NCBI GenBank assembly: GCA_016928555.1
Contig: JAFGKM010000051.1
Span: forward strand, 1 to 64,000
Reading direction: 5' to 3'
Origin: Candidatus Omnitrophota bacterium
GTDB taxonomy: Bacteria > Ratteibacteria > UBA8468 > B48-G9 > JAFGKM01
Length of the DNA: 64,000 nt
The number at the start of each line of letters is the position of its first letter. The first letter of the stretch is position 1. The notes beneath the pieces are model-generated. The model was not told the origin of the DNA. It did not search any database and saw only the letters and a program-made list of their open reading frames with translations. Positions 8,182 through 16,190 of this stretch are shown piece by piece. Position numbers and translations under genes: made by a program.

Positions 8182-8934
8182 TCAGCGGACTTCAAGTCCA
8201 TGTTCCCTGAAGTAATTTTTTATTTCCGCAATCGTGTATTTTCTGAAATGAAGGAGGGATGCGAGCAGTACCGCGCTTGCTTTGCCTTCCTTAACGATCG
8301 TTGACATATGTTCAAGAGTTCCAGCTCCTCCAGAAGCTATGACGGGAACGCGCACATTGTCGGCAACGGTTCTCGTCATTTGAATGTCGTAGCCTTTCTG
8401 CGTTCCGTCCATATCTATGCTTGTAAGAAGGATTTCTCCCGCGCCCAGGCCTTCAACCTTCTTTGCCCATTCCTTGACTTCAATGCCGGTCGGGGTTTTG
8501 CCGCTTTCTATGCACACTTCCCATCCGGAGGCGCTTTGTTTGCCGTCTATAGCCACGACTATGCACTGGCTTCCGAATTTTTCCGCGCCTTCTTTTATGA
8601 GCCCGGGGGTTTTGACCGCGGAGGTGTTTATTGAAATCTTGTCTGCGCCGGCTTTCAAAAGTTTTTCTATATCCTGCAGGCTTGTTATTCCGCCGCCCAC
8701 CGTAAGGGGTATGAAAACAACCTCCGAGACTTTCTTTACAACGTCAACCATTGTTTTCCTTCCTTCTATTGTTGCGCTGATATCAAGGAAAACAAGCTCG
8801 TCCGCTCTTTCCCCGCTGTAGAAAGCGGCGTGTTCAACGGGGTCGCCGGCTTCTATCAGGTTTTCAAAATGCACGCCTTTTACCACCCTGCCCTCTTTCA
8901 CGTCCAGACACGGAATTACTCTTATCGCAGCCAT
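8182..8934 (-). CDS. hisF: Imidazole glycerol phosphate synthase cyclase subunit HisF
   Basis: ORF 250 aa; [34 protein letters not shown]...[28 protein letters not shown]. Confidence 0.97.
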
Positions 8935-9542
8935 TTTCCCTCCAGAAAGTTTTTTAAGAAAAGGATGCCGGAATCGCCGCTTTTTTCGGGGTGAAACTGA
9001 ACACCCGCAATGTTTTCCCTCCTGACGGCTGAAACAAATTCGTTACCGTAAAAAGTTTCCCCGATTATAACCCTTCTGTTTTCGGGAGCGGGATAGTACG
9101 AATGTGCAAAATAAAAATATTCGCAGTCAGGGATGTTTTTGAAAAGAGTTTCGCCGGGGGATGAGATTTTCACTCTGTTCCATCCCATGTGGGGAATCCT
9201 GAAAGCCCTGTCTGCAAAACTGAATTTTTTTACGCCTCCCTTTATCAAGCCGAAGCCGCCGCAGCTGCCTTCTTCGCTGTGGGAAAAAAGAAGCTGTAGC
9301 CCCAGGCATATTCCGAGGAAAGGCTTACCTTCTTTTATTCCGGTTATGAGAGGCTCGATTATTCCGGATTCAGTCAGGCTTTTCATGCCGTCGGCAAAAG
9401 CGCCCACTCCGGGGAGGATGACAATAGCCGCTTTCTTCAGGTCTGCCGCTTTTTCTATGACAAACGGCTCTTCGCCGCAGGTTTTCACTGCCGTAAAGAC
9501 GCTGTGGATATTGCCGGCTCCGTAATTTACTATCCCTGTCAT
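8922..9542 (-). CDS. hisH: Imidazole glycerol phosphate synthase glutaminase subunit HisH
   Basis: [15 protein letters not shown]; intact catalytic Cys GICLGLQ and [13 protein letters not shown] at 9542 preferred over the ORF-track start at 9572. Confidence 0.96.
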
Positions 9543-9615
9543 GGTAGTTATGAAAATTTCAGTTATATGCAAACTTCGTTTGCGCTATACTTTGTTAGAA
9601 ATGGAATTAATACAG

Positions 9616-12600
9616 TTATTTATTTAAGTCTGCGTGATATTCCTGGAGACTTTTTACGCTGATTTTGTTTTCTTTCAGTTTTTTTATCGCAACCATTGTG
9701 GCTTTTGCCCCTGGAATTGTCGTTATAAGGGGAATATTTCTGTTTACGGCGATGTCTCTTATGGAAATGATGTCTTTTTTCGGCTTTTTGCCGGAAGGGG
9801 TGTTGATTATGATTGAAATCTGGTTGTTCTTCATGAAATCAACGACGTTCGGACGTTCTCCCTCGTAAACCTTGGGTATTATTCTTGCCGTTACGCCGTT
9901 CTCGTTAAGGATTTTGCCTGTTCCTGAACTTGCGAGAATCTCAAATCCTATGTCCTGGAAGCCTTTTGCTATGGCAACTACGGCTTTTTTGTCCTTGTCT
10001 TTTACGCTTATGAAGATTGTTCCGGAAACCGGAAGTTTCTGCCCCGCGGCGATCTGGCTTTTAGCGTATGCCATCTCAAAGGTTTTGTCCATTCCTATAA
10101 CCTCTCCGGTTGAACGCATCTCCGGTCCCAGAACCGCGTCTACTCCGGGGAATCTATTGAACGGGAAAACGGATTCTTTCACCGCAAAATAGTTGACGGA
10201 TATTTCTTTTGTGAATCCGAGTTCCTCAAGTTTTTTCCCCGTCATTATCTTCGTGGCGAGCTTGGCGAGGGGGACGGCTATCACCTTGCTTATGAAGGGG
10301 ATGGTTCTCGATGCCCTCGGATTGACCTCCAGCACGTATACCTTGCTGTTTTTGACGGCATACTGGACGTTTATGAGACCCTTGATTTTCAGCTCGAGGG
10401 CGAGTTTTTTTGTCGCTGTTTCAATCTCTTTCACGATTTTTTTGTCGAGACTGTATGTGGGAAGAACCATGGCGCTGTCGCCTGAGTGCACGCCCGCTTC
10501 TTCTATGTGCTCCATAATGCCGCCTATGACGCACTCTTCACCGTCGCATATGGCATCTGCATCCACCTCTATGGCGTCCTCAAGAAATTTGTCTATAAGG
10601 ACAGGCCTTTCCTGAGATACGTCCACGGCTTTTTGCATGAACGATTCAAGCGTTTCCCTGTCATATACTATTTCCATCGCCCTGCCTCCAAGGACATAGG
10701 ATGGCCTTACAAGAACGGGGTAGCCGATTTTTTCTGCTATTGCCGCCGCCTGCTCAAAGGATGTTGCCGTCCCGTTGGGCGTCTGTTTTAACGAGAGTTT
10801 TTCAAGCAGCTGCCGGAAGAGCTCCCTGTCTTCGGCGGCGTCAATGGCCTCGGGGCTTGTTCCGAGTATGTTGATTCCTTCTTTCTGCAGGGGGATGGCA
10901 AGGTTTAAGGGGGTCTGCCCTCCGAACTGGAGAATCACGCCTATGGGTTTCTCTTTTTCCACTATATTGAGCACGTCTTCAACGGTGATAGGTTCAAAAT
11001 AAAGCCTGTCCGACGTATCGTAATCCGTGCTTACGGTTTCAGGGTTGCAGTTGACCATGATGCTTTCGTAGCCGTCTTCCCGCAGAGAGAATGAGGCGTG
11101 CACGCAGCAATAGTCGAATTCAATCCCCTGGCCTATGCGGTTAGGCCCTCCTCCCAAAATAACAACCTTTTTCTTTTTCCCCTGAACTGCTCCGGAGTCA
11201 TGTTTTTCATTGGAGGAATAATAGTAGGGTTTTTCCGCAGGATATTCGCCGCCAACGCTGTCAACCGGCTTGAATACGGATGCAATGTTCTCTTTTTTTC
11301 TTTTTTCCCTCACTTCTTTTTCGGAGGAGTTCATAATGAAGGATATCTGCCTGTCGGAAAAACCCGATTTTTTGGCTTTCTCCAGTATTCCCGCAGGCAG
11401 TGCGTTTACGCCTGAATACCTGTAAAGTTCTTTTTCCATTTCAATAATCCCTTTTATGTTGTGAAGAAACCACGGGTCAATTTTTGAAAGGCCGTAGATT
11501 TCATCAACGCTCATGCCTGCAAGCATCCCGTAGCGCAGGTAAAAGAGCCGTTCATCGTCCGGGACGGATATTTTTCTCGCTATAAGCTCTTTCTCTTCTC
11601 CCGTGAATTGATGGTTTATGTCCCAGACGTCTTTTTTATCCGAACCGAGTCCGTACCTGCCTGTTTCAAGGGACCGCAGTCCTTTCTGAAGGGCTTCCCT
11701 GAAGTTTCTGCCGATGGACATTGCTTCACCTACGGCTTTCATGGATGTTGAAATCGTTTTATCCGCCGCCGGAAATTTTTCAAATGTGAACCTCGGGATT
11801 TTAAAGACGCAGTAGTCAACGGTGGGCTCCGCAAAACAGGTTGTCTTTCCCGTTATCTGGTTGTCTATCTCTTCCAGCGTCAACCCTACGGCAAGCTTTG
11901 TCGCTATTCTCGCTATGGGGAAACCCGTGGCTTTTGAAGCAAGGGCGGAGCTTCTGGAAACCCTTGGGTTAACTTCAATTATAACCACCCCGCCGTCTTC
12001 GGGGTTCACGGCAAACTGTATGTTCGCGCCGCCTACAACGCCGATTTTTCTTATGATTTTCTTTGAGAGGTTCACAAGGTTTGCGTATTCTCTAAGGCTT
12101 AAGGTCTGGGCAGGCGCCACAACTATGCTGTCGCCGGTATGTATGCCCATGGGGTCTACGTTTTCCATGGATGTGACCATTATTACGCTGTCGGCGCTGT
12201 CTCTCATAACCTCAAATTCTATCTCTTTCCAGCCGAGGACGGATTGTTCTATCAGCACCTCGCTTATCGGACTCGTGTCCAGGCCGAATTCAAGCTTTTT
12301 TTCAAGCTCTTCAATGTTGTAGGCGACGGAGCCGCCCGTCCCTCCGAGAGTGTAAGCAGGCCTAAGAACCAAAGGGAATCCGAGCTTTTTCCCTATCTCA
12401 AGTCCGTCTTTGAGGTTGTAGGCGAGCGCGCTTGCGGGAACTTCTATGCCGAGTTCGGTCATTGCGTTTTTGAAAAGCTCCCTGTCTTCCGCCATGGCTA
12501 TCGCGGATATGTCCGCTCCGATTACCTCTACGCCGTATTTTTCAAGGACTCCCTCTCTTGAAAGGAAGGTTGCGAGATTCAGCCCCGTCTGGCCGCCGAG

Positions 12601-12867
12601 CGTGGGCAGAAGCGCGTCCGGACGCTCCTTTTCTATTATTTTTGCGAGGAGTTCAACCGTCAGAGGTTCAAGATAGGTTATGCCGGCCATTTCAGGGTCG
12701 GTCATAATAGTCGCCGGGTTGCTGTTCACCAGAAGCACCTCATACCCCTCTTCCTTCAGCGATTTGCATGCCTGCGAGCCGGAATAGTCAAATTCGCATG
12801 CCTGTCCTATTATAATAGGTCCGGAGCCAATAATCATTATTTTTTTAAGGTCTTTTCTGTGAGGCAT
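9616..12867 (-). CDS. carB: Carbamoyl phosphate synthase large subunit
   Basis: ORF 1083 aa; [59 protein letters not shown]; duplicated ATP-grasp halves and C-terminal MGS-like domain. Confidence 0.98.
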
Positions 12868-12868
12868 T

Positions 12869-13894
12869 TTACCTTCCTTTTATCAGAGAGAAAAACTCTT
12901 TGAAATTGACATCCCGGGGCAGAAAGCTCGTAGACATCATCCTCATGTCCTCGTCATACTGCCCTTCCTCGGTATCATCGTTGATATTGACAAACCTTGC
13001 CGTTTTACCCGCAGATTTCTTTTCAAGGGACAGGCTGTGGCTTTGTTCCGTTATACAGCACCTGTTTTCCTTTGTGTCCGAGACAGGATGGTTTATGCCG
13101 TAATGATTCAGAATATCCCCGGAGATTTTTCTCCCCGAGGCAATGCCGGCGGCAAGATGCCCCGTCCCTGCTCCGAAAACGGGTATCCTGCCGAGGAATT
13201 TTTTTATAACTGAGGCGGCCTCCTCTATGACGGCCGGGTTTTCGGGTCCGGATGTGACGTATATTCCCGAGGCGCCGGCCATTATCTCGTCTCTTTCCGG
13301 CGCGCCCGGCGGGAAAAAAATCCAGTCAAACTCGGAATTTTTCAGCGCCGCGGTTTCGCTTTTCTTTACGCCGAGGTTGATGACGGCTATGTAAGGTCTG
13401 CCGGTTTTGAGAATATCCTGTTTCGTTTTGACCTGGGCGCAGGCAATGCCGGAGTTCTTCTTCATTTCTTTGAGAACCTTTTCGGTTTCAATGTCTGCCG
13501 GAGCGATTCCTGCCGCCATTCCCCTCCTGTTCCGTATTATCGCAGTCAGGTACTGCGTATCGGAACCTTCAAGCATTGATACGGGCTTGTCCTTCAGAAA
13601 ATCTGCCAGAGAACATTGCGCCCTGAAGTTGCTGTAAATCTCGCTGTATTCCGAGATTATCACCGCCGAGGGAAAAACCTCTTCCGTTTCCGTGTCCTCA
13701 TAGTTTATGCCGTAATTTCCTATGAGAGGATAAGTAAAACAGACTATTTTGCCGGAGTACTCAGGGGAGGTCAGAACTTTTTCGTATCCCACGACGCGGG
13801 TGTCGAAAACCAGCCTTCCCGTTTTAACGCCTTTTCCGGAAATAATAGTCCCTTCAAAAATTTCCCCGGTTTCAAGAACAATTTTGCCTTTCAT
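12869..13894 (-). CDS. carA: Carbamoyl phosphate synthase small subunit, glutaminase triad degenerate
   Basis: ORF 341 aa; N-terminal [29 protein letters not shown] is CarA-like; GATase motif reads [14 protein letters not shown] in place of IPVFGICLGHQ; C-terminal STSFLPRD in place of SxQxHPEA. Confidence 0.9.
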
Positions 13895-13898
13895 GATG

Positions 13899-15233
13899 TT
13901 ATAATTCCCTCTCTTTATCTTTTATCCTCTTTCCCGTAAAGCAGGAAAGGCATAGATGGTTTGCGGGCAGTCCTACTGCGCCTATGAAATCTTCAAGAGA
14001 GTTGTATCTCAGGGTATCGGCGCCTATCTTTTCCCGTATGCCCTCAAGAGAAAGCCTTTTGGCCGCAAGCTCCCTGTAAGAGCGGGTGGAGATGCCGTAG
14101 AAACACGGCGCTATGAGCGGAGGACAGGCTATTCTCACATGGACCTCTTTTGCTCCCGCATGCTTGAGTTCCATGACTTTGAACTGTATCTGCGTCCCTC
14201 TTACGATGGAATCGTCGCACAGGACTATCCTTTTCCCCTTGACGTTTTCTTTTATTACCGACAGTTTTATGCGGGCCTCCTCGTCCCTGCTTTCCTGTGT
14301 GTGCCTGGTATAGCTTCTGCTGGCGAACCTGTCCAGAAGAAAAACCTCCTGGTAAGGTATTTTTGACTCCTTGTGGTAGCCCAGTGCGCATCCTATGCCG
14401 GACATCGGGACCGGCGCAACTATGTCGGCCTCAATTTTTCCGTCTTTTTTCGCAAGCCTTGAACCGAAGTTTTCGCGGACCCTTATAACTGGTATGCCTT
14501 CAATTATAGAGTCGGTGGAGGCTATGTATGCCCATTCAAAAGCGCAGAATGCGGGATGCCCGTTTTTTACTCTGGCAAGAGTTTTTACGCCGTCTTTATT
14601 TATGAAGACGATTTCTCCCGGTTCAACGTCCCTGTGCAATTCCAAGCCCAGCAGGTCAAACGGCCTTGATTCGGACGAAACGGCAAACCGGTTTTTCCCT
14701 TTTCCAAGTATCAGCGGTTTGAAGCCGTAAGGGTCCCTTGCGGCATAAATGCCGCTTTTTGTGAGAATGACAAGACTGTAGGCGCCTTTAACTTTACTGC
14801 TCAGATTTGCTATCCCCGTAAGAAAGTCCTTTTCATAGGAGATTAATTTGCCGAGAAGTTCAATATCCGTTTCGCTGTTGAAAGAATGGCCTTTCTCTTT
14901 CAGCCCGGCTCTCAGCTTCTTTCCGTTCATTATGTTGCCGCTGAACGCTATTGCGAATTTTCCCATGCGGGATATTAAAAAAATGGGCTGGCGTTCTTTT
15001 AAGCTGACGTGCCCTATTCCCGAGAAGCCTTTCAGGCAGCGGATTTCATCTTCCGAAAAGGTATGCCTTACAAAACCCTTGTGGGTTGTAAGATAGATGT
15101 TCCCGGAACGGGTGGCTATTCCGCAGTATCTCTGTCCGCGGTGCTGAAGCTTGAAGATTCCGTAATAAACGTCTTTGGCCGCATTTTCCCTGCCGGCATT
15201 GTACAAACCGAAAATTCCGCAGTTCTCATCCAT
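13899..15233 (-). CDS. purF: Amidophosphoribosyltransferase with divergent glutaminase domain
   Basis: ORF 444 aa; MDENCGIFGLYN; LQHRGQ; PRPP loop IVLCDDSIVRGTQ intact; GHVR-type glutamine loop missing (GHVSLKERQP). Confidence 0.93.
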   Translation of the reverse strand: MDENCGIFGLYNAGRENAAKDVYYGIFKLQHRGQRYCGIATRSGNIYLTTHKGFVRHTFSEDEIRCLKGFSGIGHVSLKERQPIFLISRMGKFAIAFSGNIMNGKKLRAGLKEKGHSFNSETDIELLGKLISYEKDFLTGIANLSSKVKGAYSLVILTKSGIYAARDPYGFKPLILGKGKNRFAVSSESRPFDLLGLELHRDVEPGEIVFINKDGVKTLARVKNGHPAFCAFEWAYIASTDSIIEGIPVIRVRENFGSRLAKKDGKIEADIVAPVPMSGIGCALGYHKESKIPYQEVFLLDRFASRSYTRHTQESRDEEARIKLSVIKENVKGKRIVLCDDSIVRGTQIQFKVMELKHAGAKEVHVRIACPPLIAPCFYGISTRSYRELAAKRLSLEGIREKIGADTLRYNSLEDFIGAVGLPANHLCLSCFTGKRIKDKEREL

Positions 15234-15251: not shown

Positions 15252-16190
15252 TTAAATGTATTCTATGGTGCTGGGTGGTTTCGGCGTTATGTCGTAAACG
15301 ACTTTGACGACTTCCGGGACTTCTTCCAGAATCCTGTCGCGTATCTTGTAAAGAACGGGCCACGGAATCTTTGACGGCTGCGCCGTAAGCGCGTCTTTGG
15401 AATTAACGGCCCTCACGGCGATAATATCTCCGTAGACTCTTTTACCGTTTACCATTCCGGTGGCTCTGTCCGACATAAGAACGGCAAGAACCTGGAATAT
15501 GCTCTCGCCCGTTATGGCAGTTTCCACGATTTTGGTAGCCTTGCGGACTTTTTCAACCCGTTCGGGAGTAACCTCGCCTATTATCCTGGTAGCCAGCCCG
15601 GGGCCGGGAAACGGTTTTCTGTCGGCGAATTTTTTTGGCATGCCGAGTTTTTTTGCGACTTCACGGACCTGATGTTTATATATTTCCCTCAACGGCTCAA
15701 CTATTTTTAATCCGAAATGCGCCGGGTTTATTCCTATCTGCGAGAGCACGTTGTGCTGTGTTTTTATTCCTTTCTGCGTTTCGGCTATGTCCGCGGCTAT
15801 GGTCCCCTGTATGAGGAAATCCACGGAATAGCTCTTGACCGCCTGTCCGAGGGTTTTATAGAAGAGGTCCCGGAAAACTATCCTTTTTTCCTCTGGGTCG
15901 GTCTTGCCTTTTAAGCCATCAAAAAACTTGTCTTTGACATCCCATATCTGCAGTTCAATGCCCGCGTTATCAAAAAACTTCCGTATCTCTTCAGGCTCTC
16001 CCTCCCTCATGAGCCCGTCGTCGAGAAAAAGCACTATGATGTTGCCGCCGAGGGCTTTTCTGGCAAGCATGGCGCACGTCATGCTGTCGACTCCTCCCGA
16101 AACGGCTATAAGCGTCCTTTTTGTCCTGCTGATTTTTTTCTGAAGCTCTTCGGTTTTCTGGTTGATGAATTTTACGGCCGCAAAACTCAT
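15252..16190 (-). CDS. guaA: GMP synthase ATP-pyrophosphatase subunit only (GuaAb-like, no GATase domain)
   Basis: ORF 312 aa; TLIAVSGGVDSMTCAML; KPFPGPGLATRIIGEVTPER; C-terminal KPPSTIEYI; RBS AAGGAG upstream of ATG at 16190. Confidence 0.95.
   Translation of the reverse strand: MSFAAVKFINQKTEELQKKISRTKRTLIAVSGGVDSMTCAMLARKALGGNIIVLFLDDGLMREGEPEEIRKFFDNAGIELQIWDVKDKFFDGLKGKTDPEEKRIVFRDLFYKTLGQAVKSYSVDFLIQGTIAADIAETQKGIKTQHNVLSQIGINPAHFGLKIVEPLREIYKHQVREVAKKLGMPKKFADRKPFPGPGLATRIIGEVTPERVEKVRKATKIVETAITGESIFQVLAVLMSDRATGMVNGKRVYGDIIAVRAVNSKDALTAQPSKIPWPVLYKIRDRILEEVPEVVKVVYDITPKPPSTIEYI

Follow-up and report, generated by a model that had tools for sequence, protein, structure and literature searches.

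A Second PurF That Has Lost Its Glutamine Site, and Its Place in a Probable Ammonia-Dependent Operon of Candidatus Ratteibacteria

Introduction

Free ammonia is scarce in cells, and for this reason glutamine amidotransferases are usually considered to require a glutaminase. What, then, is the role of an amidophosphoribosyltransferase homolog that keeps the catalytic cysteine of its glutaminase and its phosphoribosyl pyrophosphate (PRPP) site, and has lost the site at which glutamine is bound? Such a protein, of 444 amino acids, is encoded on the reverse strand at 13899..15233 of the stretch of DNA analysed here (the window), which comprises 64,000 nucleotides of contig JAFGKM010000051.1 from a genome of Candidatus Ratteibacteria (assembly GCA_016928555.1). 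We refer to the gene as purF' and to its product as PurF'. A sequence-only reading of the gene had suggested that glutaminase activity may be weak or absent and that ammonia may be used instead. It could not be seen from the window that this is a second PurF, since the canonical purF lies outside it.

Results

Loss of the Glutamine Site

PurF' passes the TIGR01134 purF model (352.9 bits against a cut-off of 350), and one ortholog from the Omnitrophota falls below the same cut-off at 318 bits. An AlphaFold2 model of the protein (m43645bde9758, 20 homologs; pLDDT 87) has 1ao0 as its best match in the PDB, with a TM score of 0.88; pLDDT is low at residues 301-310, which form the flexible loop.

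Profile alignment with the Bacillus subtilis PurF (1ao0/1gph) places GHVRYataggggyENVQP against GHVSL--------KERQP, so that the glutamine-loop stretch GHVRYATAGGGGYENVQP of 1ao0 is represented in the window protein by GHVSLKERQP, with eight residues deleted at HVSLK (residues 75-79; 14997..15011, reverse strand). The same alignment places AHNGN of the B. subtilis protein against AFSGN (14934..14948, reverse strand), in which the oxyanion Asn is replaced by Ser. In the Escherichia coli enzyme the glutamine loop is formed by R73-E84, Arg73 and Thr76 bind a glutamine analogue, and the ammonia channel is walled on one side by Tyr74 and Ile335 (PMC7953260). Because residues of this loop are deleted, PurF' lacks both the glutamine pocket and that wall of the channel.

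A residue audit of 24 PurF' and 30 canonical PurF sequences extends these changes to the whole clade; B. subtilis PurF and E. coli CarA served as references in our comparisons, and the PurF results were cross-checked by PDB alignment. The equivalents of Arg73, Tyr74, and Thr76 are deleted in all 24 PurF' sequences and present in 29-30 of the 30 canonical ones, and the oxyanion Asn, which is N in 30/30 canonical proteins, is S, T, or A in every PurF'. The absence of the Arg73-type residue, the shortened loop, and the loss of the oxyanion Asn had all been noticed in the initial reading, and each proves to be a property of the clade. On alignment, no other part of the loop was seen to provide counterparts of the lost residues; the loop is merely eight residues shorter. 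The reading had also listed the Asp of NSETDIE among the residues retained, which holds for the window protein but for only part of the clade, 8 of 24 sequences having the Asp127 equivalent.

Other features of the family persist, as had been noticed for the N-terminal cysteine and the PRPP motif. The codon for Cys5, equivalent to Cys1 of the mature enzyme, follows MDEN at 15219..15221 (reverse strand), and the cysteine is kept in all 23 PurF' sequences that cover the region. The PRPP loop CDDSIVRGTQ is encoded at 14190..14219 (reverse strand); DDSIVRGT and the Arg342 and Lys349 equivalents occur in 24/24, and the four Fe-S cysteines are likewise retained. The Asp of the PDS(S/G) motif has become hydrophobic (F, M, or L) in 24/24, the channel-wall position Ile335 is T, L, or M, and the phosphoribosyltransferase (PRT) flexible loop, NRYVGRTF in canonical PurF, has been rewritten as DRFASRSY (14310..14333, reverse strand, in the window) or RYADRSY.

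Distribution, Phylogeny, and Selection

Full-length or nearly full-length PurF' is found in 23 of 35 Ca. Ratteibacteria genomes, at 60-77% identity, with fragments in at least two more (G024 and G033). Across 85,462 species genomes, a scan that relied on two short peptide patterns and may have missed more distant forms placed it mainly in Ca. Ratteibacteria, with two occurrences in Myxococcota and one each in Elusimicrobiota and Omnitrophota; in the phylum of the Omnitrophota member, three of the 386 genomes surveyed carry it. Whether these proteins make up a defined group, a question left by the initial reading, is settled by the tree, in which PurF' forms a single clade (support 100/100) separate from that of the canonical Ratteibacteria PurF (100/98).

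Canonical PurF, about 40% identical to PurF', was detected in 18 of the 23 Ratteibacteria genomes that bear PurF'; PurF' is a paralog beside the canonical enzyme and therefore in most genomes is not the sole PurF. Among the incomplete genomes of this set, canonical purF was not detected in G007, G010, G019, G022, and G032, but these five absences among 23 mostly metagenome-assembled genomes are, by our hand judgement, near what incompleteness would give and hence are not significant as proof of function.

Purifying selection on PurF' is strong, with a dN/dS of 0.07-0.10 in the three pairs that were informative (a fourth was too close to inform) versus 0.10 for canonical PurF. With approximate domain boundaries, identity within family f1 is 75-89% for the PRT domain of PurF' versus 67-85% for that of canonical PurF, making the former the more conserved, and 62-83% versus 65-80% for the glutamine amidotransferase (GATase) domain (for example, 71 versus 71% and 64 versus 66%). 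Sequencing error or a pseudogene can be dismissed, given the occurrence of the gene in 23 genomes, a deletion common to 24/24 sequences, and the low dN/dS. So can a chimera or contamination, as both PurF copies group with Ratteibacteria relatives and are found together repeatedly in the phylum.

A second PurF is also seen in Bathyarchaeota (L094-L096), where it lacks both the N-terminal Cys and the glutamine loop, has intact PRPP motifs, and stands beside a canonical PurF. It appears to be an independent glutaminase-dead PurF.

Operon Partners without Glutaminase

In the window, purF' belongs to an operon with the order guaA'-purF'-carA'-carB-hisH-hisF, in which the gaps from guaA' to hisH are successively 18, 4, 1, and 43 bp, with an overlap between hisH and hisF (all on the reverse strand). 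carA' (12869..13894) encodes a carbamoyl-phosphate synthetase (CPSase) small subunit whose catalytic Cys has become Gly (FGAGTGH) and whose catalytic His and Glu are lost. Its neighbor carB (9616..12867) encodes a full-length large subunit of 1,083 amino acids; the two are separate genes, not a single fused polypeptide. The same Cys is Gly or Ala in 13/13 second CarA copies checked, with His and Glu mostly lost, as against 23/23 canonical CarA of the phylum that retain Cys and HPE, the canonical copies of the phylum having served as the cross-check on the CarA residues. The dead copies lie together on one side of the CarA tree (97/94), on long branches, and selection on CarA' is relaxed, though the protein is not free of it (dN/dS 0.22 versus 0.065 in canonical CarA).

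The product of guaA' (15252..16190; 312 amino acids) consists of the PP-ATPase domain of GMP synthetase, without the glutaminase domain. Open reading frames of this form, about 300-380 amino acids long, occur in 31 of 35 Ratteibacteria genomes, and none of the operons read has a dedicated GATase subunit gene for GuaA'. By the residue roles given in PMC10526850 and PMC4673825, most copies of GuaA' retain the SGGVDS PP-loop, the equivalents of Asp371/Glu374, Lys386, His389, and Asn390, and the C-terminal KPPxTIE; the HHN of the lid loop is changed to QHN, altering a catalytic His, and the GDxRTY segment has been lost. The remaining genes are hisH (8922..9572), with intact glutaminase motifs (GICLGLQ, HPE), and hisF (8182..8934). 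Another genome of the genus (G001:C74, L167) retains guaA' and hisHF but has recently lost, from between guaA' and carB, the genes purF' and carA' together with roughly 247 residues at the start of carB.

The glutamine-dependent counterparts are encoded elsewhere in the genome, at G000:C46, in the order purL-purQ-purF-carA-carB(N)-pyrG-guaA. The canonical purF (G000:C46:29598-30914) has intact glutamine-site motifs and is accompanied by a canonical carA and a full-length guaA (525 amino acids). The carB of this operon is an N-half of about 545 amino acids (G000:C46:26693-28321; L014 8703-10580). Relatives also have a split CarB in the canonical operon, with the C-half either adjoining the N-half or sitting beside guaA'. 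No separate C-half was found in G000, where the window carB may therefore take its place.

Ammonia-Linked Neighbors in Other Lineages

In two Omnitrophota genomes a gene for glutamate dehydrogenase (GDH) separates guaA' from purF', with the orders guaA'-GDH-purF'-carA'-carB in L089 and DUF1846-hisF-guaA'-GDH-purF'-carA'-carB-purL-nagB in L232. In the Ratteibacteria family f4 it adjoins guaA', in clusters of the form hisF-[carA'-carB]-guaA'-GDH from which hisH is absent. The operons of L089, L232, and L236 likewise have no hisH, and HisH was not found in genomes G030 or G032. In L236 the order is carB-purL-hisF-guaA'-purF'-DUF1846, preceded by a candidate glutamine synthetase (assigned by eye), and the operons of some lineages have purL without purQ. 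The window operon has no adjacent GDH and does hold the intact hisH. In L232, TrpE was considered as a further ammonia-only member and rejected, since trpE is followed there by a trpG-like gene whose GVCLGHQ motif is intact.

Genome G032 yielded PurF', a Cys-less CarA, and GuaA' as its only representatives of these families, and may be incomplete; as the canonical genes sit together in a single operon, genomes with the dead set alone could simply be missing it. The PurQ of G032 keeps its Cys, so not everything there is glutaminase-free.

Several other associations were seen. In two f4 loci (L054 4033-8459 and L055), purF' is followed by gatB, gatA, and purS, and in L054 also by purL (names assigned by eye), an arrangement that reads as a purine/amidation operon. 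In Elusimicrobiota and Omnitrophota, a DUF1846 gene adjoins or lies within the guaA'/purF' operon (L088 9309-10832, assigned by PF08903; L232 13172-14710 and L235 9557-11101, assigned by similarity). nagB, for glucosamine-6-phosphate deaminase, adjoins the operon in L232 (1005-1763; TIGR00502), and a similar protein is encoded in L235 (11077-11838); this reversible enzyme could be an ammonia-using counterpart of GlmS.

Discussion

A Predicted Ammonia-Dependent Parallel Set

From residues and gene context, we consider it probable that PurF' is a glutaminase-deficient amidophosphoribosyltransferase isozyme that would make phosphoribosylamine (PRA) directly from PRPP and free ammonia, within a parallel set of ammonia-dependent enzymes. 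The loss of the glutamine pocket in PurF', taken with the loss of glutaminase by its operon partners, points to such a set, and the fixation of the former throughout the clade beside an intact PRPP site, together with the state of carA' and guaA' and the linkage of GDH in Omnitrophota, agrees with the early suggestion that glutaminase activity may be weak or absent. In each member (guaA', purF', carA', and carB, joined in other lineages by hisF without hisH, purL without purQ, and GDH) the acceptor (synthase) domain would be kept and the glutaminase function gone. As enzymes of purine, pyrimidine/arginine, and histidine synthesis are brought together, the donated amide nitrogen is the factor they have in common. 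With less assurance, though still on balance, we favor a wider proposal: that Ratteibacteria and some Omnitrophota possess a dedicated ammonia-only operon of parallel PurF, CarAB, and GuaA (in some lineages also HisF, PurL, and GDH), whose glutaminases were lost together and which is a switchable alternative to the glutamine set of the same genome. The cell would then change between the glutamine set (purF-carA-carB N-half-pyrG-guaA, G000:C46) and the ammonia set with its nitrogen supply. We infer that ammonia provides the nitrogen in vivo, that PRA is formed, and that the two sets are switched with nitrogen supply.

The chemistry has precedents. E. coli PurF Cys mutants are still active with ammonia (PMC3261824), the ATPPase subunit of GMP synthetase alone uses external ammonia (PMC10526850), and bullfrog CPS I has kept its catalytic triad and lost its glutamine-binding residues (PMC7657897).

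The window operon speaks against this reading in having an intact hisH and no adjacent GDH. Against use of ammonia only stands the catalytic cysteine, which would be free to drift and yet is invariant (23/23), in a GATase domain about as conserved as that of canonical PurF. The retained cysteine and the conserved domain would suit a different donor, the Cys hydrolyzing another amide or PurF' borrowing a glutaminase such as HisH, whose motifs are intact in the window operon, with ammonia still channeled to PRPP. We regard this as distinctly improbable: Tyr74 of the channel wall is deleted and Ile335 replaced by T, L, or M, and a partner hisH is missing from the operon in L089, L232, and L236 and from the guaA'-GDH clusters of f4.

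Replacement of the PDS Asp in 24/24 PurF', together with the change of HHN to QHN in GuaA', means that substrates may differ. The main alternative, unlikely though a case can be made for it, is that the proteins have been recruited to another pathway, in which PurF' would move the phosphoribosyl group to a different nucleophile and GuaA' would amidate a substrate of another kind. The usual coexistence with canonical PurF, the rewritten flexible loop (DRFASRSY or RYADRSY), and the loss of GDxRTY from GuaA' would fit such a change, but the PRPP-loop residues and the flexible-loop Arg/Lys are all kept, and carA'-carB, purL, hisF, and gatAB form no single new pathway, sharing only an amide-nitrogen step. 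That coexistence, in 18/23 Ratteibacteria genomes with PurF', would also be expected if PurF' and CarA' entered mixed oligomers with canonical PurF and CarAB and tuned them, and the relaxed evolution of CarA' (0.22 versus 0.065) is what a scaffold could show. A purely regulatory part is very hard to credit, however, given that the PRT active site is intact in every PurF', and at the sensitivity used no canonical PurF was detected in G032 or the genome of L089 (either may be incomplete).

Relation to Known Systems

The nearest parallel to the ammonia-dependent set is the crenarchaeal PurF', also a second PurF beside a canonical one and near purine genes, with a glutaminase judged non-functional (PMC3261824), for which an ammonia-dependent PRPP aminotransferase was proposed (Brown et al. 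2011, PMC3261824). That protein lacks the N-terminal Cys, whereas in the present PurF' the Cys never varies and it is the glutamine loop, with the oxyanion Asn, that has been lost; here carA and guaA partners are also without glutaminase. The ammonia-dependent CPS I of tetrapods, including the bullfrog form, similarly has a GATase part that is structural and cannot use glutamine, but it is a eukaryotic urea-cycle enzyme, whereas CarA' is bacterial, forms a subunit of its own, and is encoded in an operon for nucleotide and amino-acid synthesis. With B. subtilis-type PurF (1ao0, 1gph; TIGR01134), PurF' shares the fold (TM 0.88), N-terminal Cys, Fe-S cysteines, and PRPP site, but not the glutamine loop, oxyanion Asn, or PDS Asp. 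GuaA' resembles the archaeal GuaAb, the ATPPase of two-subunit GMP synthetases, in being a separate PP-ATPase protein with most catalytic residues kept; it differs in being bacterial, in its QHN lid loop, and in standing beside a full GuaA in many genomes. Single-domain NAD synthetase (NadE type N) is another glutaminase-free amidating enzyme, using free ammonia in vivo (PMC3376133), but belongs to a different family. Table 1 of a 2012 survey of ATP-dependent amidotransferases has no glutaminase-free GMP synthetase or CarAB arrangement (PMC3376133), and our literature search returned no papers on ammonia-dependent amidophosphoribosyltransferases or glutamine-amidotransferase pseudoenzymes. Given the precedents of crenarchaeal PurF' and ammonia-dependent CPS I, what is new is that the loss is coordinated over a whole operon.

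Why a Cys should be invariant where the glutamine pocket is gone is a puzzle of its own. If the ammonia-dependent reading is true, the 2011 proposal of an ammonia-dependent PurF would become directly testable. The shedding of glutaminase by at least three enzymes of one operon at once, in a genome that also has a complete glutamine-dependent set, would then amount to a natural experiment on the direct use of ammonia nitrogen in biosynthesis.
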